Source of the DNA: a virus
Virus record (IMG/VR): IMGVR_UViG_3300045482_000005
Coordinates: 1 to 23,155 of that record
Direction: 5' to 3' (one strand)
Length of the DNA stretch: 23,155 bases
The notes beneath the pieces were generated by a model, which was not told where the DNA came from, searched no databases, and saw nothing but the letters and a program-made list of their open reading frames with translations. Within the stretch, counting starts at the first letter, position 1. The number at the start of each line of letters is the position of its first letter. Below, piece after piece: positions 71 to 20,903 of the stretch. The position numbers and the translations under genes are program-made.

Positions 71-382
71 TCAGCCCTCGGACAGCATCTCGAACCAGTT
101 CGCCAGGTGCAGCTTGCAGTTCTGGCGCAGCCGGTCCTCAGTCAGGTTTTCCACGTCGCGCCTCGGCACACCAATGGCCGCCGCATAGTTGCGCAGCGAG
201 GGCTCGTTGAGCGCGTCGATGTCCACGCTCTTGGGCGGGCGGCCGGGCTCGAAGGTCATGACCGGCGTGGCCTTGGGCTGCGCAGAGGTTTTGTGTGCAT
301 CTGGGGTGGCCGCCCGGGCGCACTTGAAACCCGGCTTCGGGCCGGGCTTCTTGTGCTGCTCGGGCGGCTTGCGCTTGGTCAT
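71..382 (-). CDS. Small basic protein downstream of the capsid genes, unknown function
   Basis: Encodes 103 residues. The ATG at 382 overlaps the stop of the upstream gene in an ATGA, so translation is probably coupled; an upstream in-frame ATG at 409 would lie inside the previous gene and is less likely. The first 40 residues are Lys/Pro rich (RKPPEQHKKPGPKPG) and look disordered. The rest forms a short helical domain with the segments LRNYAAAIGVPRRDVENLT and LRQNCKLHLANWFEML. No catalytic motif is seen. Its place after the major capsid gene suggests a head or head-completion accessory protein, but this is inferred from position only. Confidence 0.7.
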   Translation of the reverse strand: MTKRKPPEQHKKPGPKPGFKCARAATPDAHKTSAQPKATPVMTFEPGRPPKSVDIDALNEPSLRNYAAAIGVPRRDVENLTEDRLRQNCKLHLANWFEMLSEG

Positions 383-843
383 CAGGCGCCCTCGACCGCC
401 GGGCGGCACAGCACGGTGAGGCGCACGCGCGCCCCCGCCGTCGGCGTGGTGATGGTCGTGCAGGCCAGGCCGATGCCTCGGTCAGCCGTGGTCGGAGCGA
501 TGCGGCCACCGCCCGCGGCCGACATGCGCTTGATGCCGGCGGTCTGGAAGGCCTGGGCCGACATGAACTCGGCGCCGCAGGTGCGAGCCTGATCGTTGCT
601 GCCGTAGGCGCCCGAGAGGATGCCCACGTTGAACGTCATCGTCGCGCCCAGGGCCTCGTTGTCCGCGATCACGTCCACCGGCACGTAACCGGCGGGCAGC
701 GGCGCCATCTCGACCACATCGCCGCTGGCAAAGCCAGCCGCGGGGACCGTGAAGTCGCCGAAGATCGGGATGAGGTCCATCGCCGCATCGGCATTGGGCA
801 CCGGCAGGCCGGCCGCCACTTGGGTTGCTTTGTGAAGAGCCAT
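382..843 (-). CDS. Putative capsid-associated (decoration or head) protein
   Basis: Encodes 153 residues, with a strong ribosome site AAGGAG nine bases before the ATG at 843. It begins 27 bases after the stop of the major capsid gene. The sequence is rich in Ala, Gly, Thr and short beta-prone stretches (MTFNVGILSGAYGS, GARVRLTVLCRP), with no signal peptide or membrane segment. Small beta-rich proteins directly after an N4-gp56 type capsid gene are often capsid decoration or stabilising proteins. Here that role is inferred from position and composition; I do not recognise a named family. Confidence 0.75.
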   Translation of the reverse strand: MALHKATQVAAGLPVPNADAAMDLIPIFGDFTVPAAGFASGDVVEMAPLPAGYVPVDVIADNEALGATMTFNVGILSGAYGSNDQARTCGAEFMSAQAFQTAGIKRMSAAGGGRIAPTTADRGIGLACTTITTPTAGARVRLTVLCRPAVEGA

Positions 844-870
844 TTCAGTTCTCCTTGAGGGTCAGTGGCG

Positions 871-1995
871 TCACTGGGCCGCGGTGAAGGCGTGGTCGCA
901 CGCGATCACACCGAAGTCCATGCCGTTGAAGCGGCACTTCGAGAAGCCGGCGACCATGCGGACGATGATGACGCCCTCCTCGCCGTAGTCCTCGTCGTCC
1001 TCGCGCAGCTCGTACTTCATGCCGCCCCGCTGGCCCTTGGTGCCGTGCGCCACAGCCACGGCGTTGGCGCCGAGGAACAGCGAGCGCGTGGCCGGGAAGG
1101 CGTAGGTGCTGCCGTTCATCGTGCTGGAGGTGCCGAACTTCACGACCGTCTGCGTCTCGTCCAGCAGCACGCCGTTGTAGTAGGCCTTGCCGCCGGTGAA
1201 GATCGGGTTCTTGCCGCCGTCGGCCGCCGCCTTGGCCTTCTCCAGGGTCAGCCAGCCGGCGTCACCCACCTCGCGGCGGATGTCGTACATGCCTTCGGGC
1301 GCCGTGAGGAACACGAAGTGCTTGCCGCCTTCGACCTGGATCGGCTCCATGCGCACCGCCTTGTCGGGCTGGCCGCCGATCTGCTTCTTGGCCCGCAGCA
1401 CCAGCTTGTCGATCACGTTGGTCGAGAGCTTGTCGCCGCTGGTCAGGGCTGCCACGTTCGCCCGGCTGCCGTCCCACACCATGTAGTGCTGGGCGTCGGG
1501 CTGGTCGAAGGTGTTGGGGAAGCCTGCGTAGCCCACCGGGTAGTGCTGGATCTCGTCGCCGACACCGCGGTCACCCGAGGCGGTCATGGTGATCTGCTCG
1601 TCGTAGATCTCGGCCATGTAGTCGCTCAGGCGATCACGGGCCTGCTCTTCGATGTTCCAGTTCACCCGCTTCTGGTCCATGATGTCGCCGACGTTGACCG
1701 CCTGGCGGTGCTTGTCGATGCGCATCTTGTGGGTGGCGTGCGAGAGCTTGTGCACGCGGCCGGCCAGCTTCTCGTTGCCCTCGACCGGCTTGCCCTTGAT
1801 CTTGGCGATCAGGGTCGTGGTCACCTCGTCACCGGGCCCGGATTCCAGGTCGGTCTTGTTGACCACCGGCATGTAGGAGCCTTCCTTGCCGGTCATCTTG
1901 TTGAAGTAGGTCTTCTTCTTCGAGTCCAGGGCGACTTTCGCCGCCCAAACTTTGACTGCCCCCGGATCGGTCGGCAGGATGCTGGTACGTGCCAT
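871..1995 (-). CDS. N4-gp56 family major capsid protein
   Basis: Encodes 374 residues and would form the shell of the phage head. The ATG at 1995 follows GGAGG by six bases. The N-terminus is typical of the N4-gp56 (DUF4043) capsid family: a run of Lys (DSKKKTYFNKMTGK), then a conserved stretch ending in DLESGPGDEVTTTL and KPVEGNEKL, a central region with HRQAVNVGDIMDQKR, and a long arm with DDDEDYGEEGVI close to the C-terminus. The length is normal for the family. It follows a scaffold-like gene and a CsrA-like gene and precedes small head proteins. The 64-base leader before it is GGA-rich with a GAAA-capped hairpin, unlike the near-overlapping junctions elsewhere in the operon, which hints at separate translational control. 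Confidence 0.93.
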   Translation of the reverse strand: MARTSILPTDPGAVKVWAAKVALDSKKKTYFNKMTGKEGSYMPVVNKTDLESGPGDEVTTTLIAKIKGKPVEGNEKLAGRVHKLSHATHKMRIDKHRQAVNVGDIMDQKRVNWNIEEQARDRLSDYMAEIYDEQITMTASGDRGVGDEIQHYPVGYAGFPNTFDQPDAQHYMVWDGSRANVAALTSGDKLSTNVIDKLVLRAKKQIGGQPDKAVRMEPIQVEGGKHFVFLTAPEGMYDIRREVGDAGWLTLEKAKAAADGGKNPIFTGGKAYYNGVLLDETQTVVKFGTSSTMNGSTYAFPATRSLFLGANAVAVAHGTKGQRGGMKYELREDDEDYGEEGVIIVRMVAGFSKCRFNGMDFGVIACDHAFTAAQ

Positions 1996-2042
1996 GAGTT
2001 ACCTCCATTGAGGGCACACATGAGCACTCCTGCGCTCGAACT

Positions 2043-2058
2043 CCCCGGTTTCCCGGGA
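2043..2058 (-). other. GAAA-tetraloop hairpin in the capsid gene leader
   Basis: Read on the minus strand, TCCCGG, GAAA, CCGGGG forms a six-pair stem (one T-G pair) closed by a GNRA tetraloop. It sits just after the stop of the CsrA-like gene and about 48 bases before the capsid ATG. The 64-base leader holds four GGA triplets, one within the loop-proximal part of this hairpin and one in the capsid ribosome site. It is not followed by a T-run, so it is not an intrinsic terminator. It may be an RNA-stability or translation-control element. Confidence 0.45.
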
Positions 2059-2059
2059 C

Positions 2060-2263
2060 CTATTGCGGGGTCAACTCCCGCAGTTTTTCGGGTCGGCCCA
2101 CCGTGACGGCATCGCCGGCCTGAACTCTCATCCGAGCCACTCGCCCGGATTTCGATTCGAGTGTCACAAGGATTTCGCCGGAGTCAACGGCCCCGGGTTT
2201 CAGGGTGAAACGCACCGTCTCACCCTCCCTGACATCCATCAGCAATCCGCGGCCTTTGCTCAC
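2060..2263 (-). CDS. Small CsrA-like protein between scaffold and capsid genes
   Basis: Encodes 67 residues from a GTG at 2263, which has a clean AAGGAG five bases upstream; the frame is open far upstream, but only this part looks protein-like. By eye it can be laid over CsrA/RsmA, the dimeric mRNA-binding regulator that recognises GGA in hairpin loops. LLMDVREGETVRF (residues 7-19) matches the CsrA N-terminus, and ILVTL, then RMRVQAGDAVTVGRPEKL (44-61), matches the CsrA strand pair and its basic VHREEI segment. About ten residues are extra between strands 1 and 2, and the usual LTR is not conserved. I am confident it is a gene and only moderately so about the family. A small beta-barrel virion protein is the main alternative. 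Confidence 0.6.
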   Translation of the reverse strand: MSKGRGLLMDVREGETVRFTLKPGAVDSGEILVTLESKSGRVARMRVQAGDAVTVGRPEKLRELTPQ

Positions 2264-2279
2264 CGGCGCTCCTTGTGTC

Positions 2280-3239
2280 TCAGTGGGCCTGGCGCAGCAG
2301 GCGCTCCACCACAGCGGGCGGCTGCTTGGCCAGGAACAGCTCGGCTTCCTCGCCTTCCAGATTGGCGAACTGGTTGAAGAGGTCATCGCCCACCGGCGCT
2401 GCCGAGGCCGAGGGCAGACCGCCCAGCGTCTTCGGGCCCGGAGGCGGCGCGGTGCGCTGGGCAGCCGCGGGTGCCTGTGCCGGAGCCTGCGCAGGAGCCG
2501 CGGCCTGCTTGGGCTGCACGCCTCGCAGGGCCAGCAGCGCGCGGTGCGCTTGGGCGGCCACGTCTTCGAAGTCCGCTTGGGCGTTGTCCGGGTCCTCGAG
2601 CAGGCCGCTGAGCAGCGTGTCGTACTGGCGGCGTGCCTTCTCGTCGTTCGCGTAGTCGATCTCGCCGGCTTTCTTGGCCTGCTTGACAATGTTGGCGATG
2701 GCGCGCGCATGCAGCGAGGCCTGGGCCTGCTCGTTGGCCGCTTGCAGCGTCTCGGCGCGCACGCGGGCCGCGGTCAGGTTCTCCAGGGCCTCGGCCACCT
2801 CGGCATCGACGGCCGCGAACTCGTCGGCGTCGATCTCGCCGTCCATGAGCTGCTTCATGGCGCCAGCTTTCTTGGCCATGAGAGCCTTGCGCTGGTCGGC
2901 GTAGTCCTTGGGCACCTCGCCCTGGAACTTGGGCACGAACGGGGCTTCGCGCTGGTCGTCGTCCGCGATCTCGGCCAGGGCTTCGGCGCTGGATTGCTCG
3001 GCCGGGGTGCCTTCGCCGCCCGGCTTGCCGTCGCCCTCGGCTTGTCCATCGGTGCCGGCCTCGGAAGAGGCTTCGGCGACTGCGGCTTCTCCGGCCTCGC
3101 CGGTGTCATCGGCGCCCTGGGCTTCACTGGCAGGATTGCCAGCCAAGATGTCGGCAGCGTCCTCGCCTTGCAGCGCGGCCAGCTCTTCGGGGGTCAGGTC
3201 GGCCTTGTCGTCGGCCGAGAGTTCCAGTTGCTTTCCCAT
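2280..3239 (-). CDS. Putative head scaffolding protein
   Basis: Encodes 319 residues. The N-terminal third is strongly acidic and low complexity (Ala, Glu, Gly, Asp). The middle (about residues 100-200) is predicted long helix or coiled coil with KDYADQRKALMAKKAGAMKQ. A Pro/Ala-rich linker (PAQAPAQAPAAAQ) follows, and the C-terminal helix ends in ELFLAKQPPAVVERLLRQ. Acidic, helical, non-enzymatic proteins between portal and major capsid genes are usually scaffolds, which direct capsid assembly and then leave the head. The assignment rests on this composition and on gene order (portal, small protein, this, CsrA-like, capsid). No protease motif was found that would make it a fused maturation protease. 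Confidence 0.75.
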   Translation of the reverse strand: MGKQLELSADDKADLTPEELAALQGEDAADILAGNPASEAQGADDTGEAGEAAVAEASSEAGTDGQAEGDGKPGGEGTPAEQSSAEALAEIADDDQREAPFVPKFQGEVPKDYADQRKALMAKKAGAMKQLMDGEIDADEFAAVDAEVAEALENLTAARVRAETLQAANEQAQASLHARAIANIVKQAKKAGEIDYANDEKARRQYDTLLSGLLEDPDNAQADFEDVAAQAHRALLALRGVQPKQAAAPAQAPAQAPAAAQRTAPPPGPKTLGGLPSASAAPVGDDLFNQFANLEGEEAELFLAKQPPAVVERLLRQAH

Positions 3240-3269
3240 GTCGTGCTCCTTGGGGTGGTGATGAAAGGC

Positions 3270-3455
3270 TTACTTCGTGGCCTGGGCGGCCTGCAGCGCC
3301 TGCATCTGCTCCTTGGCCTTGGCCTTCGCGGCGGCCAGGCGCTTGGGGTCCTTCTTGATCTCGGCGGCGCGCAGCAGGGTGCGCAGGTCATCCTCGGCGC
3401 GCCAGTCGGCTTCCTGTTTGGCGCTCACTTGCGCGGCGCTTAGGGTCTTGGCCAT
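3270..3455 (-). CDS. Small charged helical protein, unknown
   Basis: Encodes 61 residues, rich in Ala, Lys, Glu and Gln, predicted as two helices (QEADWRAEDDLRTLLRAAEI and LAAAKAKAKEQMQALQAA). The ATG at 3455 lies one base beyond the portal stop, and its AGGAG ribosome site is inside the last portal codons, so translation is probably coupled. Small helical genes sit at this spot in many phages of this type, but I know no tested function. It could assist portal or scaffold assembly. Confidence 0.65.
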   Translation of the reverse strand: MAKTLSAAQVSAKQEADWRAEDDLRTLLRAAEIKKDPKRLAAAKAKAKEQMQALQAAQATK

Positions 3456-3456
3456 G

Positions 3457-5640
3457 TCACATCACTCCTGGTTGCAGACCGTCAGCGGCCTGAGTTTCAA
3501 TTCCAGCCATGGCCCCGTCGGCCTGCTGTGGTTCGGGGATCGCGGGCCCGGGCTGGGCCCCTTGCGCTGCGGCCGGGTCGATCACGCCGGCCCCGCCCTT
3601 GTCCTGGAAGCCCGCGGAGCGCAGCAGTTCATCGGCGATGGGGGTGATGCCCGGCGCCATGGCCAGCACCTGGGCACCCTGGGCGGCCATGTAGAGCGAT
3701 TCCAGCCGCTTGGCCATCGCCTCGGCGTCCAGCTTCTCGCCCTTGGCCTGGGCCTCCTTGATCGCGGCCTGCATCTGGGCCATCTGGGCCTGGAACTGCG
3801 CCTGTGCAATCGCCTGCTGCTGCGCCTTGGCGGCCTGCTGCTCGGGCGTGTCTTCCTCGCCCGGGGCGTTCTGGCCGGTGACGCCGCGCACGCGCTGCAG
3901 GATCGTCTCGCGCTTGGGCAAGTTGGGGTGCATCTCGAAGACGAGATCGAGGATGGCCACCACCACCTGCGGGGCGACCGGGGCAAGCTGGCCCAGCAGC
4001 TCCATCGTGCTGTCGAAAGCCCCCTCGGCCAGGCTCTGCTTCCACGGCTGCTCGCCGATCACGAAGTGGGCCTGCCGCGCGGTGATGTCGTTGAGCACCT
4101 CGCCGTTCGGCCCCGGCTGGTTGATCTTCACGTAGTCGAAGCGCGAGGACTCGCCCGGCACGCCGAAGGTCTTGGGCTGGTTCACGAACTGCTCGCACAG
4201 GCTCAGCGTGAGCTCGCCCTCCAGTTGCCGGGCCAGCAGCAGGTTGTCGAAGGGCTCGGTGGTGAGCATCGAGCCCTGTTCCTGCTTGGCGATGATGGCC
4301 TTGCCGGAGCGGGCGGTGGTGTCCAGGCCGCGGGCCTCGCCGTTGACACCCGAGCCCATGCGGATGGCCTGGATGTTGTGCTCGGCCAGGCGCAGGTCGC
4401 CCTCCACGAAGGGTTGGCCCTCGCGGATCTGCACCTTGCTGCCCGAAAGCGCGCCGTCGGCGAAGGTGAGCACACCATCGGGGGCTGCTGCCTCGTCGCG
4501 CAGTTGCTCCTCGTCCATCACCTCACGGTCCAGGGCCGACTTTTCCAGGCGGATCTGGTTGGCCGACAGGCGCCACTGGGCCTTGGACATCTGCTTGTTC
4601 AGCACGTCCTGCGGCCCGCGCTGCTGGCGGATCATCCCGTAGGGCGCGCGGTCCTTCTTGCGCCGGTAGCACCACACCGGGACGAAGGGGAAGCGGTTGT
4701 GCTTGTACGGGCTCCAGGTTTCCAGCAGGGTGTCGTACTCGGTCATGATGGTCACGCGCTTGCGCATGCGAACCGGGTCGTTCAGGCTGGCGCCGCCGTC
4801 GCCCTCGCGGCTGGGCACATACACCTCGTTGGCCCAGCACTCGATCAGCAGCACCCGCTCGCGCGGGTTGGTGAGCCAGGCGTCGGCGTCGTAGGGCGCC
4901 CACTTCTGCGGCATCGCGCCCACCGGGCTGGTCATGCCGCTGATGGGCTCGCCGTTCCACCACTCCAGGTAGGTCGATCGCTGGTCGCCCTCGATCAGGG
5001 CCTTCCTGAGCAGGTCGCCGTGGCCGAGATAGGCCTCGGCAATGTCCAGGTCCACCTCCTTGAAGCGGAACTGGTAGCGCCAGTCATCGTCGGGGATCGG
5101 GCTCATGCCCAGGCTGTCGTACAGCATGTTGCGCCACGTCTCGGAGCGCACGTAGACCGGCTCGTCGCTCTCGTCATCGCGCACGCCCACCTCCAGCCAC
5201 CCCAGGCCGGCCTTCACCGACTCCTCGAAGGCCCAGGAGCGTGCCCAGGGCGTGCGGTTGACGTCGGACAGGTACTTGAGCAGCTTGGTCTTGGCCTGGG
5301 CGTCCTCGTAGGCCTCCTTGCTGTCGTCGCTGCGGCTGGTCACCAGGTGATCGACGCGGGTGCGCCGCTCGGTGCCGATCATCCAGTCGATCGTGGGCTT
5401 GACCTCGTTGTAGACCACGGGGTTCTGGCCACGGGCCAGCAGGGCGGCCGCTTCGTCGGGCTGGTACTGCAGGCCGTCGTAGTAGTCCTCGTCCATCGCC
5501 ATCTGGTAGCGGTTGGCCGCCTGGCGGGTGAGCTCCATCTGGAACCAAGCCTTGCGCGTGCGAAAGCGCTGGATCTTGGCTTCGTCGTGCTTGCGCTCTT
5601 CCGCGCGCTGGGAGCCCGTGCGGGCTTTGATGGTGGCCAT
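3457..5640 (-). CDS. Portal protein, P22 gp1-like
   Basis: Encodes 727 residues. The product would form the ring at the packaging vertex through which DNA enters and leaves the head. The start region, with KAWFQMELTRQAANRYQMAMDE and then DYYDGLQY, and the segment NPVVYNEVKPTIDWMIGTERR, are characteristic of the P22-type podovirus portal family; 727 residues agrees with P22 portal (about 725). Further family segments include WAFEESVKAGLGWLEVGVR and RNMLYDSLGMS. The C-terminal 150 residues are Gln/Ala-rich helix, as expected for the portal barrel. The ATG at 5640 overlaps the previous stop by one base. It lies between terminase and scaffold as usual for head modules. Confidence 0.92.
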   Translation of the reverse strand: MATIKARTGSQRAEERKHDEAKIQRFRTRKAWFQMELTRQAANRYQMAMDEDYYDGLQYQPDEAAALLARGQNPVVYNEVKPTIDWMIGTERRTRVDHLVTSRSDDSKEAYEDAQAKTKLLKYLSDVNRTPWARSWAFEESVKAGLGWLEVGVRDDESDEPVYVRSETWRNMLYDSLGMSPIPDDDWRYQFRFKEVDLDIAEAYLGHGDLLRKALIEGDQRSTYLEWWNGEPISGMTSPVGAMPQKWAPYDADAWLTNPRERVLLIECWANEVYVPSREGDGGASLNDPVRMRKRVTIMTEYDTLLETWSPYKHNRFPFVPVWCYRRKKDRAPYGMIRQQRGPQDVLNKQMSKAQWRLSANQIRLEKSALDREVMDEEQLRDEAAAPDGVLTFADGALSGSKVQIREGQPFVEGDLRLAEHNIQAIRMGSGVNGEARGLDTTARSGKAIIAKQEQGSMLTTEPFDNLLLARQLEGELTLSLCEQFVNQPKTFGVPGESSRFDYVKINQPGPNGEVLNDITARQAHFVIGEQPWKQSLAEGAFDSTMELLGQLAPVAPQVVVAILDLVFEMHPNLPKRETILQRVRGVTGQNAPGEEDTPEQQAAKAQQQAIAQAQFQAQMAQMQAAIKEAQAKGEKLDAEAMAKRLESLYMAAQGAQVLAMAPGITPIADELLRSAGFQDKGGAGVIDPAAAQGAQPGPAIPEPQQADGAMAGIETQAADGLQPGVM

Positions 5641-6113
5641 CAGATGGTGTCCTCGCTGAGGGTCTTGCCGGTGGCCTCGTCGCTGAGCTCCACCTCGAGC
5701 AGGGCTTTGCCGGCCTCGGCCTGGCGCGCATCACGCGGCATGGGCGGCATGAGGATCAGCTCGGGGATGTAGTGCATCACCACGTCCACCAGGGTGCTGA
5801 CCTCCACCTGCAGGGGCGCGCGGTCGAAGCACTCCACCAGCGCGGCGCGGGCCTCGGCGAAGGCCTCCGGCGTGGGCTTGCCGCTGGGGTCGGCGTACTT
5901 GCCCACCGAGCTCAGGCAAATGCCCCACACGCCGGCCTCGCGCCCACCGGCCACGGGCCAGATGGCCAGCATGGGCTCGGTGGTGCGGCGCCCAGAGAAC
6001 CATTCCAGGCTCACGCAGTAGCCCTTGAAGGTGCCGGTCTTCCAGCTGGTCGGCCCGCCGAGCGAGTACAGGTCGCGCCCGAGGGTGTCCACGAGAGGGG
6101 TGTTGATGTTCAT
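5640..6113 (-). CDS. Conserved phage protein between large terminase and portal, unknown
   Basis: Encodes 157 residues, starting at an ATG that overlaps the terminase stop in an ATGA. The sequence has a beta-rich N-terminal half (GTFKGYCVSLEWFSGRR, MLAIWPVAGGREAGVWGICL) and a helical middle (PEAFAEARAALVECFDRAP), ending in an acidic tail. It has no signal peptide or recognised motif. Its tight coupling to terminase and portal suggests a role in head assembly or packaging, but this is only positional. Confidence 0.75.
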   Translation of the reverse strand: MNINTPLVDTLGRDLYSLGGPTSWKTGTFKGYCVSLEWFSGRRTTEPMLAIWPVAGGREAGVWGICLSSVGKYADPSGKPTPEAFAEARAALVECFDRAPLQVEVSTLVDVVMHYIPELILMPPMPRDARQAEAGKALLEVELSDEATGKTLSEDTI

Positions 6114-7552
6114 AGGATCTTGGGGTTGCGCTCGCGCCGCTCACGGCGCGGCTGAGGTTCGGTGGTGGCCCTGGCCAGGCCTGAGACGATCAGGTAGCGC
6201 GTTGCGTCCATGAGGTGGTCGTTCTCCTTGACGATGGCGCCCTTCTCGTCGCGTCGGTACAGCCGGTACTCGCCGAGCCAGTTCTGCAGGCTGCGGAAGA
6301 CCTTGAGGCGGCCGGTGGACAGGCGCTGCCACACGTCGTAGATGCCGGCCTCGCGTGCGTTGTTGGCCGGCTGTAGGTCCAGGCCGTGCTCCCGGTAGGT
6401 TTCGATGAGCTTCTCGCCGTCTTTCTGGCTTCGCCCCCGCGCGGCCGGGTCGATCACGCCGGGTATCCACTTGCCCTTCGCCTTGATCGCGTCGGCGTGG
6501 ATGCTTGGCTCTGCTTGACCGCGGTAGTGCTCGGCAGTCAGATACACCACGTCGTTCTCTCGGTCCCACGCTGCCCAGGCTGCGGCTGTGCGATTCCATC
6601 CCACGTCCATGCCATAGGATCGCGGCCAGTGCTCCGGGATGTCGAAGGGCGCCACCACGATGTCTTCCTCCGGCACCGGGTAGATCGCTCCCGCCCCCAG
6701 GCTGGGAATGCCCTTTGTTCGGGCGTCGCGCTGGTGGGGCATCAGCTTGGCCAGCATCTTGATCTTCACGTCCTCGTCCAGGTGAGGCACGTCGTCCCAT
6801 CCGCACTGCACGATGGCCCGGCTGGCCGCGGCGTCTGTGCTGGTCTTCTGGAGGCTCACCACAAGCGGCGTCAAGCCGTTCAGGGGCGTGAAAGTGAGCA
6901 TCGAGATGCCTCGGCGCGTCATCAAGCGCACCAGGCCCTCCTCGTACACGTCCTCGGGGCACTCTTCGTCGGCCCAGAACACGTCCAGCTCGAAGCCCTG
7001 GAAGATCTCGCGGCCCTGCTCGTAGCTGCGCAGCCACAGCTCCGACTCGCCGCCGGTCACGTGGCGCACGGTCACGCGCTCGATGGCGCCCTTGACGTGT
7101 GGCCGCGGGATGTAGCTGATGATGTCTTGACCAGGGATCAGCCCCGTGCCGATGTTCTCCGGGCGGTCGGTCGTCCCGCCCAGCAGCTTGAGCTGCAGGA
7201 TGTCGCGCGTGGTTTCGTGGGTGTCGCCGGACGCTAGCGCCCGGATCGGCCGGTTGAACCTGCGCCCCTCCCACCACGCAGGGTACTTGCCCGTAAGGTG
7301 GTACGCGATCTCGCAGCCTGCGGCCACGGTCTTGCCGGTCCTGTTGCCCGCGATGAACGCCCGCTCGTCCTTCTCGGCGCCGAGCCGGAAGAACTCGACG
7401 TGCTTGGGGTACAGATCGCGTCGCAGCGGCCCATCGTCCGGGAACATGCCGTCGAGCAGGCGCATGCGGCTACGCCGCTCGACCTCTCCCAGCAGCACCG
7501 CCAGTTCGGCCTTGTCCTCAGGGCTCAGAGTCGAAAGGTCAATCGCCCCCAT
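6110..7552 (-). CDS. terL: Large terminase subunit, DNA-packaging ATPase/nuclease
   Basis: Encodes 480 residues. It cuts concatemeric phage DNA and drives it into the prohead through the portal. Walker A is AGNRTGKT at residues 68-75; Walker B is LDVFWADEE at 189-197. The RNase H-like nuclease half shows the expected acidic residues: D316 in GMDVGWN, D368 in GVIDPAARG and D449 in HLMDATRYLI. I chose the ATG at 7552 because GGAGGG lies eight bases upstream; the longer frame begins with an Arg-rich stretch encoded within the small terminase gene. The gene overlaps the small terminase by 14 bases and the next gene by four. Confidence 0.94.
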   Translation of the reverse strand: MGAIDLSTLSPEDKAELAVLLGEVERRSRMRLLDGMFPDDGPLRRDLYPKHVEFFRLGAEKDERAFIAGNRTGKTVAAGCEIAYHLTGKYPAWWEGRRFNRPIRALASGDTHETTRDILQLKLLGGTTDRPENIGTGLIPGQDIISYIPRPHVKGAIERVTVRHVTGGESELWLRSYEQGREIFQGFELDVFWADEECPEDVYEEGLVRLMTRRGISMLTFTPLNGLTPLVVSLQKTSTDAAASRAIVQCGWDDVPHLDEDVKIKMLAKLMPHQRDARTKGIPSLGAGAIYPVPEEDIVVAPFDIPEHWPRSYGMDVGWNRTAAAWAAWDRENDVVYLTAEHYRGQAEPSIHADAIKAKGKWIPGVIDPAARGRSQKDGEKLIETYREHGLDLQPANNAREAGIYDVWQRLSTGRLKVFRSLQNWLGEYRLYRRDEKGAIVKENDHLMDATRYLIVSGLARATTEPQPRRERRERNPKIL

Positions 7553-8270
7553 CTGCGGCGCCCTCCGTCTTCGGCGGCGTGATGGCCGTGATCCCAAACC
7601 GTGCCAGCCGCTTGGCCAGCTCGTCGTCGCTCATGGACCGAGCATCGATGGTCGCGTCGACCTGCACCTTGTCGCCGTAGACCCGCGGCTTGAGCTTCGC
7701 CGCCACCCATTTGCGTGCATCAACGCGCAACTTCGCGCGCTGCACCGCTGCATGGTTCGTCACCGGCCGGCCGTCTTCGTCTTCTGCCAGGTCGCTGCCG
7801 TCGTCGTCGCTGATGGACACGATCTCGTCGGCCAGCTTGTCGGAGCGGTCCTCGCGCGCACGCGCGTATTTGGCGTCTCTCTCAGGGTCGGCGGCGATCC
7901 AATCGCGGATCGTGCTGTAGCTCAGGCCCTGCTCTTGTGAGTAGGCCCACAAGTTTCCGCCGGACACGATGTAGTCGCACAGGGCCGTGATGGCACGAGC
8001 GGGGTCGGCGCTCCACTTCTGCCACGGGGTTTGCGGGGTCTCTGCGGCTGCTGCCGGTGCCGGCTTTGCCTTCTTGGAGCGGGCGCCCGGAGTTGAACCG
8101 GGCGACTCCGACGTAGAAGGACGGCGCCCTGCCAGTTGAGCTACGCCCCCCGCGGGTTGCTTGGGTTTGGCCGCGACCTTCTTGGCCGCCGGGCGCTTTG
8201 CCGGGGCCTTCTTCGGGTCAGGGGTGGTCGCCTTGGCCTTGGTGGGCTTCGGCGTACTCTTGCGCGCCAT
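7539..8270 (-). CDS. terS: Small terminase subunit with a tRNA-like insert
   Basis: Encodes 243 residues. It recognises phage DNA and recruits the large subunit for packaging. The conserved part is residues 83-215: an HTH-like segment (ITALCDYIVSGGNLWAYSQE, LSYSTIRDWIAADP) followed by YARAREDRSDKLADEIVSI and AKLRVDARKWVAAKLKP, typical of Sf6-like and related small terminases. The first 80 residues are Lys/Ala/Pro-rich and probably disordered. Residues 41-66 within this linker are the translation of a complete tRNA-shaped sequence (separate entry). The ATG at 8270 has GAGG about nine bases upstream; a longer frame to 8324 lacks a site. It is the first gene of the late operon. Confidence 0.88.
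   Translation of the reverse strand: MARKSTPKPTKAKATTPDPKKAPAKRPAAKKVAAKPKQPAGGVAQLAGRRPSTSESPGSTPGARSKKAKPAPAAAAETPQTPWQKWSADPARAITALCDYIVSGGNLWAYSQEQGLSYSTIRDWIAADPERDAKYARAREDRSDKLADEIVSISDDDGSDLAEDEDGRPVTNHAAVQRAKLRVDARKWVAAKLKPRVYGDKVQVDATIDARSMSDDELAKRLARFGITAITPPKTEGAADGGD
8075..8150 (-). tRNA. tRNA-Arg(UCU)-like sequence embedded in terS
   Basis: Read on the minus strand, 76 bases fold as a canonical cloverleaf including an encoded CCA. It has T8 A9; D-stem GCTC/GGGC with an eight-base loop holding A14, G18 G19 and A21; anticodon loop CTTCTAC with T33, anticodon TCT (34-36) and A37; a five-base variable loop; T-arm CCCGG, TTCAACT, CCGGG; discriminator T73; CCA at 8077-8075. Two pairs are broken: G2-G71 in the acceptor and T30-T40 in the anticodon stem. 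Each is one substitution from pairing. The first base is also the first base of codon 41 of terS, same strand. It may be a decayed, captured or still functional tRNA; the T discriminator is unusual for bacterial tRNA-Arg. Confidence 0.7.
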
Positions 8271-8313
8271 CCGTGTGTCCTCGTGGTGGTGGGCAGCCGC
8301 GAGGGAAAGAACG

Positions 8314-8336
8314 GCCCAGGGCACCAGGCCCCGGGC
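8314..8336 (-). terminator. GC-rich hairpin upstream of the late operon, possible terminator
   Basis: On the minus strand GCCCGGGGC and GCCCTGGGC pair over nine bases (one G-T) around the loop CTGGT, followed by the moderately T-rich CGTTCTTTCCC. It lies between the end of the early region and the terS start. A terminator here could limit readthrough into the late genes until antitermination, as at lambda tR'. The T-tract is imperfect, so it is only a candidate. The rest of 8271-8433 holds no open frame that I would call. Confidence 0.35.
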
Positions 8337-13703: not shown

Positions 13704-14496
13704 GGCTTGCTCCCTTCACGAACTCGCCGCCCAGGGCGGCCATGGTTTCCTTGCGCTGGTCCATCCGCGTGCCGCCGCGCTCGCCGCTGGAGCGCTGGCA
13801 CGCGGCCTTGAGGAACGATGGGGGGTCGGCGGGCCGCTCGAGCACCGCGACGCGCACTGCCTGGACGACGATCTCAGCGCCGTAGTCCTTGACCAGCTTT
13901 CCGACGAAGTAGCCGCACTGCTTGGCAGGCATGCCGCTCTGCTCCAGCAGCGACTTCCCAGCTGCCCAAAGCTCGTCCTTGGTCATCTGCTCAATGGTCT
14001 TGGCCGGCGGCGAGCCGCCCGCTCCGTCAGGAGCGGAAGAAGCGAACGTAGTGAGCGGTGTAGGTGATGGTGGAGGGCATTCCTCATGCATATGCTCTGG
14101 CAATGCTTGTGGCATGCTTGGAGCATTGCTTGAGGAATGCTCTTGAGGCTTCTTCCATCGTGCTTGTGCTGCCCTGCCGGCTTTCTCCGCGGCCTTCTTG
14201 GAGCGTTCATCAGCCTCCGCAATCTCGGCTTCGACACGCTTGTGCCACCACACGCCGTCACCGACCCTGAAGAACTTGGCCAGCACCGGGCGAACCCTCT
14301 TCCATTCGGAGCGCTCCAGCTTCGTGATCGCTCGCAGCTCCTCGTCATCGTCAGCCAACGCCTTGCGCTCGCGCCAGTAGGCAATGAGCAGCAGCAGGTA
14401 GGCCCCGTGCTGAAGCGTGGTGAGCTTCATGGTGTCGGCCAGGTAGGCGCCGATCCACAGCGGCATCCAGGTGTCGGCCTTCTTGTCACCGGCCAT
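13675..14496 (-). CDS. DUF1376 phage replication initiator
   Basis: Encodes 273 residues. The N-terminus is DUF1376: DTWMPLWIGAYLADTMKLTTLQHGAY (in part), then LLLIAYWRERKAL and ITKLERSEWKRVRPVLAKFF, ending in a basic helix with KAGRAAQARWKK. A low-complexity linker (about residues 125-165) follows, then a helical C-terminal domain (YFVGKLVKDYGAEIVVQAVR). This plan (DNA-binding N-terminus, linker, partner-binding C-terminus) and the P-like gene after it point to the role of lambda O. The linker DNA holds iteron-like repeats. The ATG at 14496 overlaps the methyltransferase stop by one base; a start at 14511 is possible. Confidence 0.85.
   Translation of the reverse strand: MAGDKKADTWMPLWIGAYLADTMKLTTLQHGAYLLLLIAYWRERKALADDDEELRAITKLERSEWKRVRPVLAKFFRVGDGVWWHKRVEAEIAEADERSKKAAEKAGRAAQARWKKPQEHSSSNAPSMPQALPEHMHEECPPPSPTPLTTFASSAPDGAGGSPPAKTIEQMTKDELWAAGKSLLEQSGMPAKQCGYFVGKLVKDYGAEIVVQAVRVAVLERPADPPSFLKAACQRSSGERGGTRMDQRKETMAALGGEFVKGASHATGDYIDV
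14077..14147 (-). repeat. Iteron-like repeats inside the initiator gene, candidate origin
   Basis: On the plus strand the core ATGCTYT/ATGCTTG begins at 14092, 14103, 14114, 14125 (as ATTGCTTG) and 14137: five copies at spacings of 11, 11, 11 and 12 bases, close to one helical turn. The cluster is bounded by a nine-base inverted repeat, GCATTCCTC (14077-14085) and GAGGAATGC (14132-14140). The tract is clearly less GC-rich than its surroundings. It lies in the linker-coding part of the initiator gene, the same relative place as the lambda origin in gene O. Confidence 0.55.
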
Positions 14497-15146
14497 CAGG
14501 CTGCCTCCCACGAGAAAAGGTCCATGGTTGCTGGCGGCTCTGGCTGGGCAAGAGTGCGCTCCACGTGTTCAATGCGTGCCCGAGCAATCGCCACATATTC
14601 CTCCTCACGCTCGATGCCGACGAACCTGAAGCCCTCCAGGACGGCGCCTCTTCCAGTGCTGCCGCTGCCCATGAACGGGTCCAGCACCACGCCGCCGGGA
14701 GGTGTCACCAGGCGGCAGAGGTAGCGCATCAGGTCGGTGGGCTTGACGGTGGGGTGGTTGTTCTTGCCCTGGGCGGGCGGCTTGCCGTCGATGCGCGTGT
14801 CGTTGCCGACCATGCGTCGGCCGCGATGTTGGCCGTAGGGGTCGGCCGTCACGGTCGGCATGTGGCCCAAGCCTTCGTCCCGCTCCCGCTTGCTCGCCTT
14901 GGCGCAGTAGAAGAACCGGGCGGCGCTGCCGGTGTCGCCCCTTGGGGTGGTGGCCGGGCGCCCGTTGAACTGCCCGTAGACGGCGTTCGTCTTGCTGCTC
15001 GGCTCATTGCCAGTAACGGCGCCCTGCTGACCGTTGGCCTGCGGGAACGCCGCCAGCACCTCGTCGCGCGCCGGGTTCGGCTCCGCCCGAAACAGCGCCT
15101 GCAGGTGCGCCGGCATGGCCTTGTATGTCTCCTCGTCAATCCGCAT
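14496..15146 (-). CDS. C-terminal half of a split DNA methyltransferase
   Basis: Encodes 216 residues carrying the second half of a beta-class amino-methyltransferase: ATTPRGDTGSAARFFYCAKA (68-87), HPTVKP (131-136, motif X) and DPFMGSGSTG (156-165, motif I, SAM binding), ending in EYVAIARARIEHVE. It lacks the catalytic DPPY, which is in the separate gene at 15728-16891. In the usual single-chain protein these parts follow one another, so the gene has been split by the HNH gene between them. The ATG at 15146 lies 11 bases inside the HNH end, allowing translational coupling. The two halves might still assemble, as natural split methyltransferases can. Confidence 0.85.
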   Translation of the reverse strand: MRIDEETYKAMPAHLQALFRAEPNPARDEVLAAFPQANGQQGAVTGNEPSSKTNAVYGQFNGRPATTPRGDTGSAARFFYCAKASKRERDEGLGHMPTVTADPYGQHRGRRMVGNDTRIDGKPPAQGKNNHPTVKPTDLMRYLCRLVTPPGGVVLDPFMGSGSTGRGAVLEGFRFVGIEREEEYVAIARARIEHVERTLAQPEPPATMDLFSWEAA

Positions 15147-15741
15147 AGCGAGTCCTTCCGTGTTCTTCGTAATGGCATGCGCGGCAGAGCGTCACGCCGT
15201 TGTCGAGCGCCCAGAGTTCGGCGGCATGAAGGCGGGCGTCGTCTCGCGACGAGATGCCAAGCGCCTCGATCAGATCCGCAAGCGGTGTGCGGTGGTGGGC
15301 CTCAAGGGTTTCCGTGGCGGCGCAGCGCGTGCATTTATGGCCGTCCCGCGCCTTCACCGCATCCATCCAGCGACGGTTCTCGGTCATGCGCCGGATCGAC
15401 GCATTCAGCTTGGACGCCCCTCCCTTCCATCGGTAGTGCGCCTCGCCGCGCACCTTTTCGCCGCGAGCCGCCACGCGATCCGGGTTCGCTGCGCACCAGG
15501 CTTTGTGGGACGCGGAAGTCTTGGCCTTAGACTCGGCGCGGTGCCGATAGCCGGCGCGTCGGTTGTCTCCGGGGCGGCGCCCCAGCTTCAGCGCAGCGGC
15601 TTGCGCCTCGGTCACGCCGGATGCGGCCTGCGCCTGCCCCCGATGCTCAAGGCAGGCGACGTGACGAACCCGCGCGAGATCGGAGGGCCGCCGATACAGC
15701 GGCTTCTGGCAGATCACGCAGGCGCAGTTAGGCGTTCGCAT
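15136..15741 (-). CDS. HNH homing endonuclease between methyltransferase halves
   Basis: Encodes 201 residues. The N-terminus has a zinc ribbon (C8-x2-C11, C30-x2-H33); residues 98-108 (GEAHYRWKGG) fit the GxxH-x-WKGG motif common in phage homing enzymes. The C-terminal HNH domain has WMDAVKARDGHKCTRC (C137, C140), LEAHHRTPL (H149, H150), N181 and CRACH (C186-C189). Such enzymes cut an uninvaded allele and copy themselves in by repair. The gene overlaps the upstream half by 14 bases and the downstream half by 11, filling the gap exactly, with no room for intron RNA. The start ATG at 15741 lies within the last codons of the upstream half. Confidence 0.88.
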   Translation of the reverse strand: MRTPNCACVICQKPLYRRPSDLARVRHVACLEHRGQAQAASGVTEAQAAALKLGRRPGDNRRAGYRHRAESKAKTSASHKAWCAANPDRVAARGEKVRGEAHYRWKGGASKLNASIRRMTENRRWMDAVKARDGHKCTRCAATETLEAHHRTPLADLIEALGISSRDDARLHAAELWALDNGVTLCRACHYEEHGRTRYAD

Positions 15742-16891
15742 CCATCCACTCCGAGAGTTGTCGAAGCTGGCCGGGCGTCACGTCGTCGCGCAGCGCGTAC
15801 TGGTCTTCGGGAACCGACAGGATCAGGTTGGCGGGCCAGCGGCCAACATAGGTCTTCGGATCGCCCTGCGTGCCGCGCCGCGCCTCAGCGGTACCGGCTG
15901 CGCCCAGCGCGTTGCCGTGGCAGGGCGCTAGCGAAGTGAAAGCCGCGACGCGCACTTCATCGCCCACCCTGCATCCGTCGATGTTCAACGCCCCAGTGCC
16001 ATGCGCCTGCACGTTCTCGGCCACGGTACCGGCCAGGGGCTTGCGGGCCACCACAATGCTTTCCCATGCGGGCTTGAGCGCTGTTCCCCAGCCCTCCCAT
16101 TCGCCGCTCAGGTTGTGACTCTTGGGGAATCCCGAGCCAAAAATCCAGCCGATGCAATCCCGCACCTCGAAGCCTGCGTCCTCGATTCCGGCTGCCAGTC
16201 GGTGATACTGCCGCGGCGCGCCAAAGGCGAGCATGTGCCCGCCCGGCTTCAGGACGCGCAAGCACTCGGCTGCCCAAACCCGGCACCAGTCTTGGAATCG
16301 GTGCCCAGACCACGGAACGTCGGTGTAGCGCCGAACATCCTCCAGTCGCGCCTTCAAGAGCGCGGCGCGCGACTGGTCGGCTTGACCATGCCAGCGGTTT
16401 CCGCGCGGGCGCTCCAGCCACTCCCACACAGCCTGAGCCCACACCTCGAAGTCGTTCGCCTTCTTGGCCGTCAAGGGGTAACGCCGAAACAGGCCGACCA
16501 AAGCCTCACACCCCTCTTTGTCCTGCACGACGTAGACCGCTTGAGGGCTGCTACTGCCCTCGCCGTCCGCATCCCGAACGGTACCGTGGCCGACGAACCG
16601 CCGGATGCGCTCCAACACCGCCCGGTCGTCGCGGCGCAACTTGATCTGAAAGGCGCAGATATGCGTTCCTCTTTCGTGGCGCTGAACCCGGAAACACCCC
16701 TCGCCGTCCGTGAATCCGGCCAGCCAGTAGCCGAACCCGGCATCCTCACGCCCGTCGTGTTTATCCCATTGCTTGCCCATGAATCCGCCGGGCAGCGCAT
16801 AGGGCGGATCGGTGACGATCGCGTCGATGCTGTTCTCGGGCATGCCGCGCAGCACCTCCAGACAGTCGCCGTGGTGGATATCGAACGGCAT
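15728..16891 (-). CDS. N-terminal half of DNA methyltransferase with in-frame LAGLIDADG domain
   Basis: Encodes 387 residues. The methyltransferase part begins with FDIHHGDCLEVLRGMPENSI and the catalytic DPPY at 28-31, then GGFMGKQWDKHD. About residues 48-192 are a LAGLIDADG endonuclease domain (separate entry). The methyltransferase resumes at HRFQDWCRVWAAECLRVLKPGG, then the recognition region with GSGFPKSHN, ALKPAWESIVVARKPL and AENVQAHGTGALNIDGCRV, and stops after WMDANA. Motifs X and I are missing here and sit in the gene at 14496-15146. I chose the ATG at 16891 (one-base overlap with the previous stop); an ATG at 16903 adds four residues. The target is likely adenine-N6 or cytosine-N4; the sequence it recognises cannot be read off. 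Confidence 0.85.
   Translation of the reverse strand: MPFDIHHGDCLEVLRGMPENSIDAIVTDPPYALPGGFMGKQWDKHDGREDAGFGYWLAGFTDGEGCFRVQRHERGTHICAFQIKLRRDDRAVLERIRRFVGHGTVRDADGEGSSSPQAVYVVQDKEGCEALVGLFRRYPLTAKKANDFEVWAQAVWEWLERPRGNRWHGQADQSRAALLKARLEDVRRYTDVPWSGHRFQDWCRVWAAECLRVLKPGGHMLAFGAPRQYHRLAAGIEDAGFEVRDCIGWIFGSGFPKSHNLSGEWEGWGTALKPAWESIVVARKPLAGTVAENVQAHGTGALNIDGCRVGDEVRVAAFTSLAPCHGNALGAAGTAEARRGTQGDPKTYVGRWPANLILSVPEDQYALRDDVTPGQLRQLSEWMDANA
16316..16750 (-). mobile_element. LAGLIDADG homing endonuclease domain inserted in the methyltransferase
   Basis: About 145 codons with the single-motif signature GYWLAGFTDGEGCFRV (LAGFTDGEG at residues 57-65 of the host protein). These are followed by FQIKLRRDDRAVLERIRRFVG, YVVQDKEGCEALVGLFRRYPL, AKKANDFEVWAQAVWEW and HGQADQSRAALLKARLEDVRRY, a pattern known from bacterial and phage LAGLIDADG enzymes. 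One motif per chain suggests a homodimer. Flanking residues continue the methyltransferase without a gap. There is no Cys/Ser plus His-Asn pair at the borders, so it is not an intein. Borders are estimated from where methyltransferase-like sequence ends and resumes. Confidence 0.8.
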
Positions 16892-17244
16892 CAGTGCACA
16901 CATCGGATCAGGTACACGGCCACCGGGTGACTGCGGGTCTTGACGGCTGCGGCCTTCGCGTACACCTGCGATCCATCCGGGTGTGTCTTCGGCGCGATCA
17001 GCCCGGCGCGCATCAGTAGGCGCGGCGCGGAGCCCCAGGCCGCCGAGCTGGGCGGCTGCTGCTTGGCTGCTGCTCTGAACTCTTCAACTCTGAAATCGCG
17101 CAGGCCCATCGCCACGCGCCTGGCGGCCCAGGCCCGGAACTCGGCCAACATGCGGTCGGCCCAGCTCTCGTCGATGTCGAGCGCGAGCTGCTGGCCAAGA
17201 GCCTTGCGGCGCTGGCCTTCTTGGGGGTCGAGGAGCACTGTCAT
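16891..17244 (-). CDS. Unknown early protein, helical, possible winged helix
   Basis: Encodes 117 residues from an ATG in an ATGA overlap. The N-terminal half is helical (QEGQRRKALGQQLALDIDE, WADRMLAEFRAWAARRVA). The second half reads as a possible DNA-binding winged helix: DFRVEEFRAAAKQQPPSSAAW, APRLLMRAGLIAP and then strands with SQVYAKAAAVKTRSHPVAVY. No name is offered. It precedes the methyltransferase directly. Confidence 0.7.
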   Translation of the reverse strand: MTVLLDPQEGQRRKALGQQLALDIDESWADRMLAEFRAWAARRVAMGLRDFRVEEFRAAAKQQPPSSAAWGSAPRLLMRAGLIAPKTHPDGSQVYAKAAAVKTRSHPVAVYLIRCVH

Positions 17245-19629: not shown

Positions 19630-20082
19630 ATGAAGACCGTCAGCGATATTCGGAGAGCCAACCTGGAGGCCCTAATCCAGGAGCACGGGACACTTGAGGC
19701 CGTGGCCGCCAAGGGATCAACCTCATCGGTCTACCTGAGCCAGATTCGCAACTCGGCCAAGGACGCAAAGACAGGCCGGCCCAGGCAGATGGGCGACAAG
19801 ATGGCTCGAGCATTGGAGCGCGGCTGCGGCAAGCCGCCTGGCTGGATGGACGCTGACCACTCAGGTCAGTCACCCGTGATCTACGATCCCGAGGCTGGGT
19901 CAGGAATGACGCTGGCCACCGCGATTGCTTACCTTGGTAGGCGCCTGCAGGACGTGGACGCCATGGACCGCCGGGCGGTGCTGGAGATGCTGAGGGGGCT
20001 GGAGACGCGCCCGGCCGATGCGCCGAGGATTGGTCAGGTCATCGAGCGACTGATGGAGGCAGCCAAACAGTCCATCGCATGA
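19630..20082 (+). CDS. CI-like repressor lacking a peptidase domain
   Basis: Encodes 150 residues. The N-terminal part, DIRRANLEALIQEHGTLEAVA, AKGSTSSVYLSQIRN, GRPRQMGDKMARALERGC, GKPPGWMD, is the HTH domain usual in CI-like repressors of Burkholderiales and Neisseria-type phages. The C-terminal 60 residues are two helices (TLATAIAYLGRRLQDVDAMD, RIGQVIERLMEAAKQ), probably for dimerising. There is no S24 Ser-Lys peptidase domain, so RecA-driven self-cleavage is not expected. I chose the ATG at 19630; a longer frame from 19570 would run through the operators. It faces cro across operators 1 to 3. Confidence 0.85.
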   Translation: MKTVSDIRRANLEALIQEHGTLEAVAAKGSTSSVYLSQIRNSAKDAKTGRPRQMGDKMARALERGCGKPPGWMDADHSGQSPVIYDPEAGSGMTLATAIAYLGRRLQDVDAMDRRAVLEMLRGLETRPADAPRIGQVIERLMEAAKQSIA

Positions 20083-20152
20083 GGCCCCCCGCGCGAATTT
20101 ATCCCATTCGCCCCCACTTGTTACAAGATGCAAGTCAGGAAAAGCCCTCGCC

Positions 20153-20168
20153 TCCCCCTTCAGGGGGA
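20153..20168 (+). terminator. Short hairpin after the repressor gene
   Basis: TCCCCC-TTCA-GGGGGA forms a six-pair stem with a four-base loop. No T-run follows, so intrinsic termination is doubtful; it may pause transcription or protect the repressor message. It is bracketed by TGTTACA (20119-20125) and its inverse TGTAACA (20169-20175). Confidence 0.3.
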
Positions 20169-20173
20169 TGTAA

Positions 20174-20189
20174 CAGCGGTTGACCGCTG
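20174..20189. promoter_or_regulatory. 16-base palindrome upstream of the exported-protein genes
   Basis: CAGCGGTTGACCGCTG is a seven-base inverted repeat around TG, 34 bases before the ATG at 20223. It differs from the AAGCG-type operators. TTGACC inside it could serve as a -35, but no good -10 follows. It may be an operator for separate control of the two exported proteins. Confidence 0.4.
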
Positions 20190-20222
20190 GCAATCTATCA
20201 GCATCCCTTAAGGAGAGACAGC

Positions 20223-20441
20223 ATGAAGACGTTTGCAGCCGCCGCGCTTCTTGTGCTCAGCTCGGCCAGCCACGCTTGGGGCCTGGACGCCGCGTTGCGC
20301 AGCGCTGGCATCCCGATTTCCGGCCCTTCCTACAACCTCTCGTGCGGCATCGCCCCGATCCCGCCCATAGGGTGCCGAGTCGGCCAGTGCGTGTGTGATG
20401 GCATGGGGCAAAACTGCAGGTGGACGTTCGTATGCAGTTGA
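20223..20441 (+). CDS. Small secreted Cys-rich protein
   Basis: Encodes 72 residues with AAGGAG eight bases upstream. MKTFAAAALLVLSSASHA is a typical signal peptide with cleavage likely after SHA. The mature part of about 54 residues has six Cys (41, 51, 56, 58, 65, 71), suggesting three disulfides formed in the periplasm. It has no lipobox. It lies between the repressor gene and a terminator, the place of lysogen-expressed genes in lambdoid phages, so a role in superinfection exclusion or host conversion is possible. No family is recognised. Confidence 0.75.
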   Translation: MKTFAAAALLVLSSASHAWGLDAALRSAGIPISGPSYNLSCGIAPIPPIGCRVGQCVCDGMGQNCRWTFVCS

Positions 20442-20887
20442 GGGCATGCGCCGCGGCAATGCTTCTGTGGGTTGGCCTTGCCGGCGGTGCCAAGGCGTCA
20501 CCACCGATGCCGATCTACATCGACTCGACGTCCAATGACTCTGTTGGGCAGACGCTTTCGTATGCCATACGAGAGCGGGTCAGGCGCAGCGCCAGCATGG
20601 CCCTGGCTGCACAAGATCGTGATGCCAAGATCGTTCTACGCATCGTGACGATCGACCCGGATCAAGGCGCAAACAGCGCTCAGAACATGACCGTGTACTC
20701 CGCCACGATCACAATGTGGTCCGCCCACAACTTTCCCCTTGAGGTGTACCTGAACTCTCGGGTGGGGCTCTGCGGAGCACAGCGCATCGAGCAGTGCGCG
20801 CTGCGAATCACCGCTCAGCTCGATGAAGAGGTGACACAACTGCGCGCCGTCTGGCGGCAGTTCGGGGTCGAGCCACCAAAAAACTGA
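20432..20887 (+). CDS. Exported protein, unknown, paired with the Cys-rich protein
   Basis: Encodes 151 residues. The N-terminus MQLRACAAAMLLWVGLAGGAKA is a signal peptide ending in AKA, followed by a mature domain with SVGQTLSYAIRERVRRSASM, KIVLRIVTIDPDQ and NMTVYSATITMW, a mixed alpha/beta plan, and two Cys (LCGAQRIEQC). The ATG at 20432 overlaps the end of the previous gene by ten bases and has AGGTGG upstream; a GTG at 20420 is an alternative. It is followed 16 bases later by a strong terminator. The periplasmic location is inferred; the function is unknown. Confidence 0.75.
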   Translation: MQLRACAAAMLLWVGLAGGAKASPPMPIYIDSTSNDSVGQTLSYAIRERVRRSASMALAAQDRDAKIVLRIVTIDPDQGANSAQNMTVYSATITMWSAHNFPLEVYLNSRVGLCGAQRIEQCALRITAQLDEEVTQLRAVWRQFGVEPPKN

Positions 20888-20903
20888 AGCGCCACCCCGG
20901 CCG

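Follow-up and report, generated by a model that had tools for sequence, protein, structure and literature searches.

The window, by which we mean the whole stretch of 23,155 nucleotides analysed here (positions 1 to 23,155 of IMG/VR record IMGVR_UViG_3300045482_000005), carries a late operon on its minus strand. On this strand the small terminase gene, terS, lies directly upstream of the large terminase gene, terL, and the terS reading frame runs through a tRNA-like sequence. The features of the locus are collected in Table 1. The conserved core of the small terminase matches the Pfam family Sf6_terminase (PF20901; 92.6 bits, residues 94-204) as well as PHROG 1482; the PF20901 domain and the position of the gene directly upstream of terL identify it as an Sf6-type small terminase.

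Table 1 Features of the terS locus and of the integrase region. Coordinates are those of the window unless preceded by G001, the 61-kb record described in the text.
Feature	Coordinates	Strand	Evidence
Terminator-like hairpin just upstream of terS	8314..8336	-	GC-rich, T-rich tail
Ribosome-binding-site-like GAGGA, 7 nt upstream of the ATG of terS	8278..8282	-	Sequence
terS, small terminase, 243 aa, ATG at 8270	7539..8270	-	PF20901, PHROG 1482
terS codons 1-40, Lys/Ala/Pro-rich N-terminal tail	8151..8270	-	M(P)ARKS start as in L202 and L307; codon usage
Sequence derived from tRNA-Gly(UCC), 76 nt including CCA; present anticodon TCT	8075..8150	-	ARAGORN, Rfam, family comparison
Rest of the terS tail (residues 66-93), lacking in-frame ATG/GTG/TTG	7992..8074	-	Sequence, AlphaFold
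terS conserved core, residues 94-204	7659..7991	-	PF20901 match; helices from residue 82 on (AlphaFold)
terL, large terminase, downstream neighbour of terS	6110..7597	-	PF03237/PF17289
Tyrosine integrase	G001 19828-20859
Candidate attP, 38-nt tRNA-Val(CAC) 3' end	G001 20866-20903	Opposite integrase	6 bp past integrase stop

The sole other copy of the tRNA-containing terS was found in IMGVR_UViG_3300045454_000015 (G001), a record of 61,189 bp whose 127-bp end overlap defines a circular genome of 61,062 bp, of which the window is a permuted part. G001 is identical to the window at terS and 99.6-100% identical overall, and the two may not be independent samples. All 17 differences between them fall within positions 104-4541 of the window, the remaining 18.6 kb being identical.

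Within the window, ARAGORN called exactly one tRNA, at 8075-8150 on the minus strand and with the anticodon TCT. A search of the window against all 4227 Rfam families matched RF00005 at 8078-8150 minus with 45 bits, well above the gathering cut-off of 29, and E = 8.6e-7; the tRNA match is therefore not due to chance. The initial annotation, made from the sequence alone, had described a complete tRNA-shaped sequence at these positions, lying on the same strand as the late operon. It had proposed to check it with ARAGORN over 8060-8165 and to give it up if covariance scores fell far below threshold, and both programs bear it out; its coordinates were plus-strand ones, the tRNA itself being on the minus strand like the late operon. 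Non-standard pairs are found only at 2-71 (G.G) and 30-40 (T.T), the same two that it had listed as broken. On paper, 19 of the 21 stem pairs form, and the T arm and CCA are intact.

The first base of the tRNA, at 8150, falls exactly on codon 41 of terS as counted from the ATG at 8270, in agreement with the earlier claim that the tRNA is read in frame from a codon boundary. Its 76 bases make up codons 41-65 and the first base of codon 66. The resulting GGVAQLAGRRPSTSESPGSTPGARS would serve as a tRNA-encoded linker of about 25 codons that joins the basic tail to the folded DNA-binding core, and the peptides GGVAQLAGR and RPSTSESPGSTPGAR would, allowing for trypsin sites, be the expected products of reading terS through the tRNA. 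In AlphaFold models, residues 1-80 adopt no secondary structure, with the lowest confidence at 40-50, which fits the disordered-linker setting that had been proposed for this segment.

Between the end of the tRNA and the conserved core, ATG, GTG and TTG are all absent from the terS frame. Past the tRNA, a common start codon is first met at codon 102, a GTG located where the first long helix of the core ends, and rare starts (ATC, CTG) just before this codon would likewise truncate that helix. Translation of terS must therefore pass through the tRNA, as no common start codon is available to it before the core. At the other end of the gene, the M(P)ARKS protein start is common, almost base for base, to terS in two related contigs, L202 and L307. 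Codons 1-40 are phage-like in usage (GC3 0.88, codon-adaptation index 0.66), and so is the remainder of terS, with an index of 0.57-0.58, while for codons 41-65 GC3 drops to 0.60 and the index to 0.32, as against 0.57-0.66 elsewhere in terS; across 14 late genes, an index as low was found in just 2.7% of 25-codon windows. Judging from these sequence features, we interpret terS as a conserved gene read through a foreign segment.

We then compared the sequence with other tRNAs. In a ranking of 484 distinct tRNAs with the anticodon masked, a set gathered in part by arm pattern and thus favouring relatives, the best match was the tRNA-Gly(UCC) of contig L155 with 57/70 identical positions, as against 46/70 for the best tRNA-Arg; a host tRNA-Asp reached 56/70, but only with an insertion. 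A phage search and a ranking made before the pattern scan agree on tRNA-Gly as the nearest relative. All matches among 50,697 phage records were in Pseudomonas phages, including YMC11/02/R656 and D3, and wherever a tRNA was annotated under the match it was a tRNA-Gly. A first pattern of the D arm and anticodon arm, in which UCC and UCU were allowed and T30 and T40 were fixed, retrieved 60 other viral contigs, all with tRNA-Gly(UCC). With positions 30 and 40 left free, the number rose to 68 other viral contigs, again with tRNA-Gly(UCC) in 68/68; T30-T40 is present in 60 of them and a normal pair in 8. The mismatch, which the initial annotation had read as a mark of coding drift at T30, is common to so many relatives that it represents an ancestral trait of the family. 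Examples of T30-T40 are seen at L155:6610-6685, L110:1994-2069 and L142:3383-3458, and candidate reasons for its retention are that it is a tolerated relic or that it permits escape from a host anticodon nuclease.

Like the phage tRNA-Gly(UCC) genes (YMC11/02/R656 and D3; contigs L155, L167 and L142), the terS tRNA is an ungapped 76-nt cloverleaf with CCA and a near-identical D arm; its sequence from the D arm to the anticodon arm is that of the family apart from single changes, and it shares T30-T40, U73, G1-C72 and G3-C70. Unlike these genes, which lie between other genes or in tRNA clusters and have the anticodon TCC, it resides inside a conserved gene and carries TCT, C38 in place of A38 and a nonstandard G2.G71 pair. 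These departures are the reason why we describe it as derived from tRNA-Gly(UCC) and not as a functional member of the family. In the terS frame, the change from UCC to UCU does not alter the encoded residue (TCC/TCT, both Ser). The isotype first assigned, tRNA-Arg(UCU), thus gives way to descent from a phage tRNA-Gly(UCC). An alignment to the host tRNA-Arg(UCU) had also been proposed; no near-identical tRNA was found in 398 Pseudomonadota genomes, and a host tRNA-Arg was rejected as the source, tRNA-Gly being nearest.

The reading frames of this family bear on the in-frame position of the tRNA. Frame 2 of the terS tRNA meets a TAG at tRNA positions 8-10, and among the tRNA-Gly family frame 1 is open in 96%, frame 3 in 100% and frame 2 in none. 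Given these statistics, the start at a codon boundary is less striking than it sounds, and since two of the three family frames are stop-free, in-frame capture is not improbable once an insertion had occurred.

We next looked at related terminases. ARAGORN found no tRNA inside terS in 82 other homologues, in L202 or in 39 more obtained with a two-sequence profile, some of these contigs being end-clipped at the 5' end. The comparison of terS homologues suggested by the initial annotation therefore shows the insert to be absent from some 120 further small terminases. Of the relatives with a tail, L202 (61,380 bp; terL 65% and terS core 52% identical) is the nearest; it has the same kind of Lys/Ala/Pro-rich tail and no tRNA anywhere in its genome. 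Removing residues 41-65 lowered the score of the alignment with L202 from 428 to 418; the tail is of low complexity, so this alignment alone does not place the insertion and speaks neither for nor against a clean one. In L307, a contig whose portal gene is 52% identical and whose terS also starts with MPARKS, a separate tRNA-Gly(UCC) of another sequence lies 203 bp upstream of terS.

Several further observations were made on these contigs. The M(P)ARKS start is shared at the DNA level between window 8256-8270, L202:3358 and L307:3507, and the terS core of L307 is unrelated, as if the 5' end of terS stays and the core is swapped. An Rfam-positive tRNA at L307:2893-2998 (34.1 bits), just upstream of the tRNA-Gly(UCC) and terS, has a perfect 7-bp acceptor stem and an anticodon loop that is larger by ~20 nt. 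Hairpins similar by eye to the one upstream of terS in the window are present upstream of terS in L202 and L307, and this hairpin is possibly a late-gene antitermination site.

Compared with its family, the terS tRNA has probably decayed. Five positions that do not vary among 25 tRNAs of the family (23, 36, 38, 46 and 48) are altered, the change of C2 to G breaks pair 2-71, and the variable loop lacks the family sequence. The 13 departures from the family are distributed over codon positions 1, 2 and 3 as 2, 6 and 5; they therefore show no coding constraint, contrary to the earlier proposal of drift under coding use. The score of 45 bits is below those of all 84 of 84 tRNAs of two bacterial genomes (47.9-75.8) and of six tRNA-Gly family members (52.5-67.9), though some phage tRNAs of contigs L190 and L307 score between 34.8 and 50 bits. 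Furthermore, the cloverleaf is less stable than the best fold by 8.8 kcal/mol (0-6.2 in the family); as a gap this large occurs in 23% of the gathered 76-nt tRNAs, we regard it as supporting evidence only. No sequence of intermediate divergence is available, so the loss is not datable and selection is not measurable. On this comparison, the terS tRNA is probably no longer functional as a tRNA.

We consider it likely that a phage tRNA-Gly(UCC) was captured by terS, where it now codes for a disordered TerS linker and is probably dead as a tRNA. The earlier idea of a tRNA turned into protein stands in this form as the best reading, the sequence being translated and absent from homologues; its Arg identity and the coding drift do not. 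In such a scenario, a phage-borne tRNA-Gly(UCC), of a family frequent in phage tRNA clusters, would have recombined into the 5' part of terS, at a pre-existing disordered Lys/Ala/Pro-rich tail, and the stop-free frames of such tRNAs would have permitted read-through. The direction of the event would be from tRNA to terS, with the captured sequence becoming linker between basic tail and folded core and the added peptide being presumably neutral. The tRNA role would have decayed through the changes UCC to UCU, A38 to C and C2 to G and the loss of the family sequence in the variable loop. Short-range recombination of an upstream tRNA into terS seems the simplest route, and the tRNA upstream of terS in L307 indicates that such an arrangement exists in the group.

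A different reading, which we consider unlikely, is that the sequence is bifunctional, being translated as terS yet cut by RNase P and perhaps RNase Z, and thus acting as a brake on the small terminase. RNase P acts on tRNA-like structures within mRNAs, and a cut at 8150/8151 would separate the start codon from the core while leaving terL intact. The encoded CCA, 6 of 7 acceptor pairs, the 45-bit cloverleaf score and a T-arm pair probability of 1.0 in every folded context are consistent with processing. However, efficient cutting would destroy terS, the 2-71 mismatch adjoins the cut site, and the arrangement lacks conservation that would indicate selection. The acceptor stem has a pair probability of 0 both alone and in all mRNA contexts folded, a result of small weight, as the same tool does poorly on the genuine tRNA-Gly of L155 as well. 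It is quite improbable that RNase P still cuts the captured tRNA at some rate, so that the coding sequence would carry a cleavage switch by which TerS is reduced relative to TerL. If processing did take place, it would represent a new mode of late-gene control.

It is very unlikely that the sequence is a working tRNA-Arg(UCU), which would have arisen from a tRNA-Gly by the anticodon shift and would decode AGA in late expression. The anticodon UCU and the ARAGORN label point in this direction. In E. coli, tRNA-Arg is identified by A20 and A/G73, and G1-C72, G3-C70 and U73 are the Gly-type elements for the synthetases. The terS tRNA has C20 and T73 and fits the Gly type at all three elements, and none of the Arg tRNAs compared is close to it. 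Among the Arg codons of the phage, AGA is used least (1.7 per 1000), so a need for such a tRNA is not evident.

The initial annotation had also considered the sequence as the mark of a past integration, and an attP or its relic would suit the temperate make-up of this phage and its tyrosine integrase. Phages often integrate at tRNA genes. This possibility is already nearly excluded, as a 3' end of tRNA-Val(CAC) type adjoins the integrase, in the normal position of an attP. The candidate attP matched tRNA-Val(CAC) genes in 12 of the 398 Pseudomonadota genomes with 1-3 mismatches, and ARAGORN called the tRNA at all but one of the 12 loci examined; on this sequence evidence, we take it to have the expected attP anatomy. 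The terS tRNA, on the other hand, lies 24 kb from the integrase, is complete at both ends, and has no near-identical counterpart among the tRNAs of the 398 Pseudomonadota genomes; none of its 14-nt segments is found a second time in the phage genome. Likewise, tRNA-dependent lysogeny, in which a temperate phage with a tyrosine integrase also carries a tRNA, requires matching isotypes (PMC10865867), whereas here the attP is of the Val(CAC) type and the tRNA in terS is Gly-derived with UCU.

Equally, there is hardly any room for a terS that starts downstream of the tRNA, which would make the in-frame reading an annotation artefact of the AntiFam type. The frame in question is open in 46% of the 484 tRNAs, and spurious ORFs are known to arise over tRNAs (PMC9710616), with the same style of translation (GVAQL...). 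Unlike these, the terS frame belongs to a real gene with a conserved core and a conserved start, the absence of common start codons extends from the tRNA to codon 102, and codons 1-40 are phage-like. Finally, the idea that GC-rich coding sequence merely happens to look like a tRNA is excluded by the Rfam E-value and the arm sequence shared with the tRNA-Gly family.

Like other Sf6-type small terminases, the protein has the conserved core with its KWVAAKLKP motif, and several homologues also have a Lys/Ala/Pro-rich N-terminal tail; it differs from the members examined in carrying a tRNA in this tail. Exonised transposable elements in eukaryotic genes (PMC2203978) are similar in that a mobile sequence is recruited as coding; in terS, the source is a phage tRNA, no splicing is involved and the gene serves phage packaging. 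In the open-access literature we found no tRNA inside a terminase and no other in-frame case. The terS locus would be a rare example of the conversion of an RNA gene into protein, in which a whole structural-RNA gene lies in a conserved protein with both ancestries readable, the frame forced and tRNA-less homologues in existence. It suggests that phage tRNA genes can end as protein linkers, and that a single synonymous codon change can make the apparent isotype depart from the true ancestry. It is also a warning that tRNA callers name such relics by their anticodon alone.

Two other features of the phage were observed. A DNA methylase at 14496-16903 on the minus strand of the window is divided between two ORFs. 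The one for the N-terminal part (15728-16903) includes a LAGLIDADG domain in frame; between it and the C-terminal part (14496-15146) lies an HNH-like ORF (15136-15741). In G001, the minus strand at 28030-38958 holds an open frame that spans 3643 codons and is strongly coding in composition.
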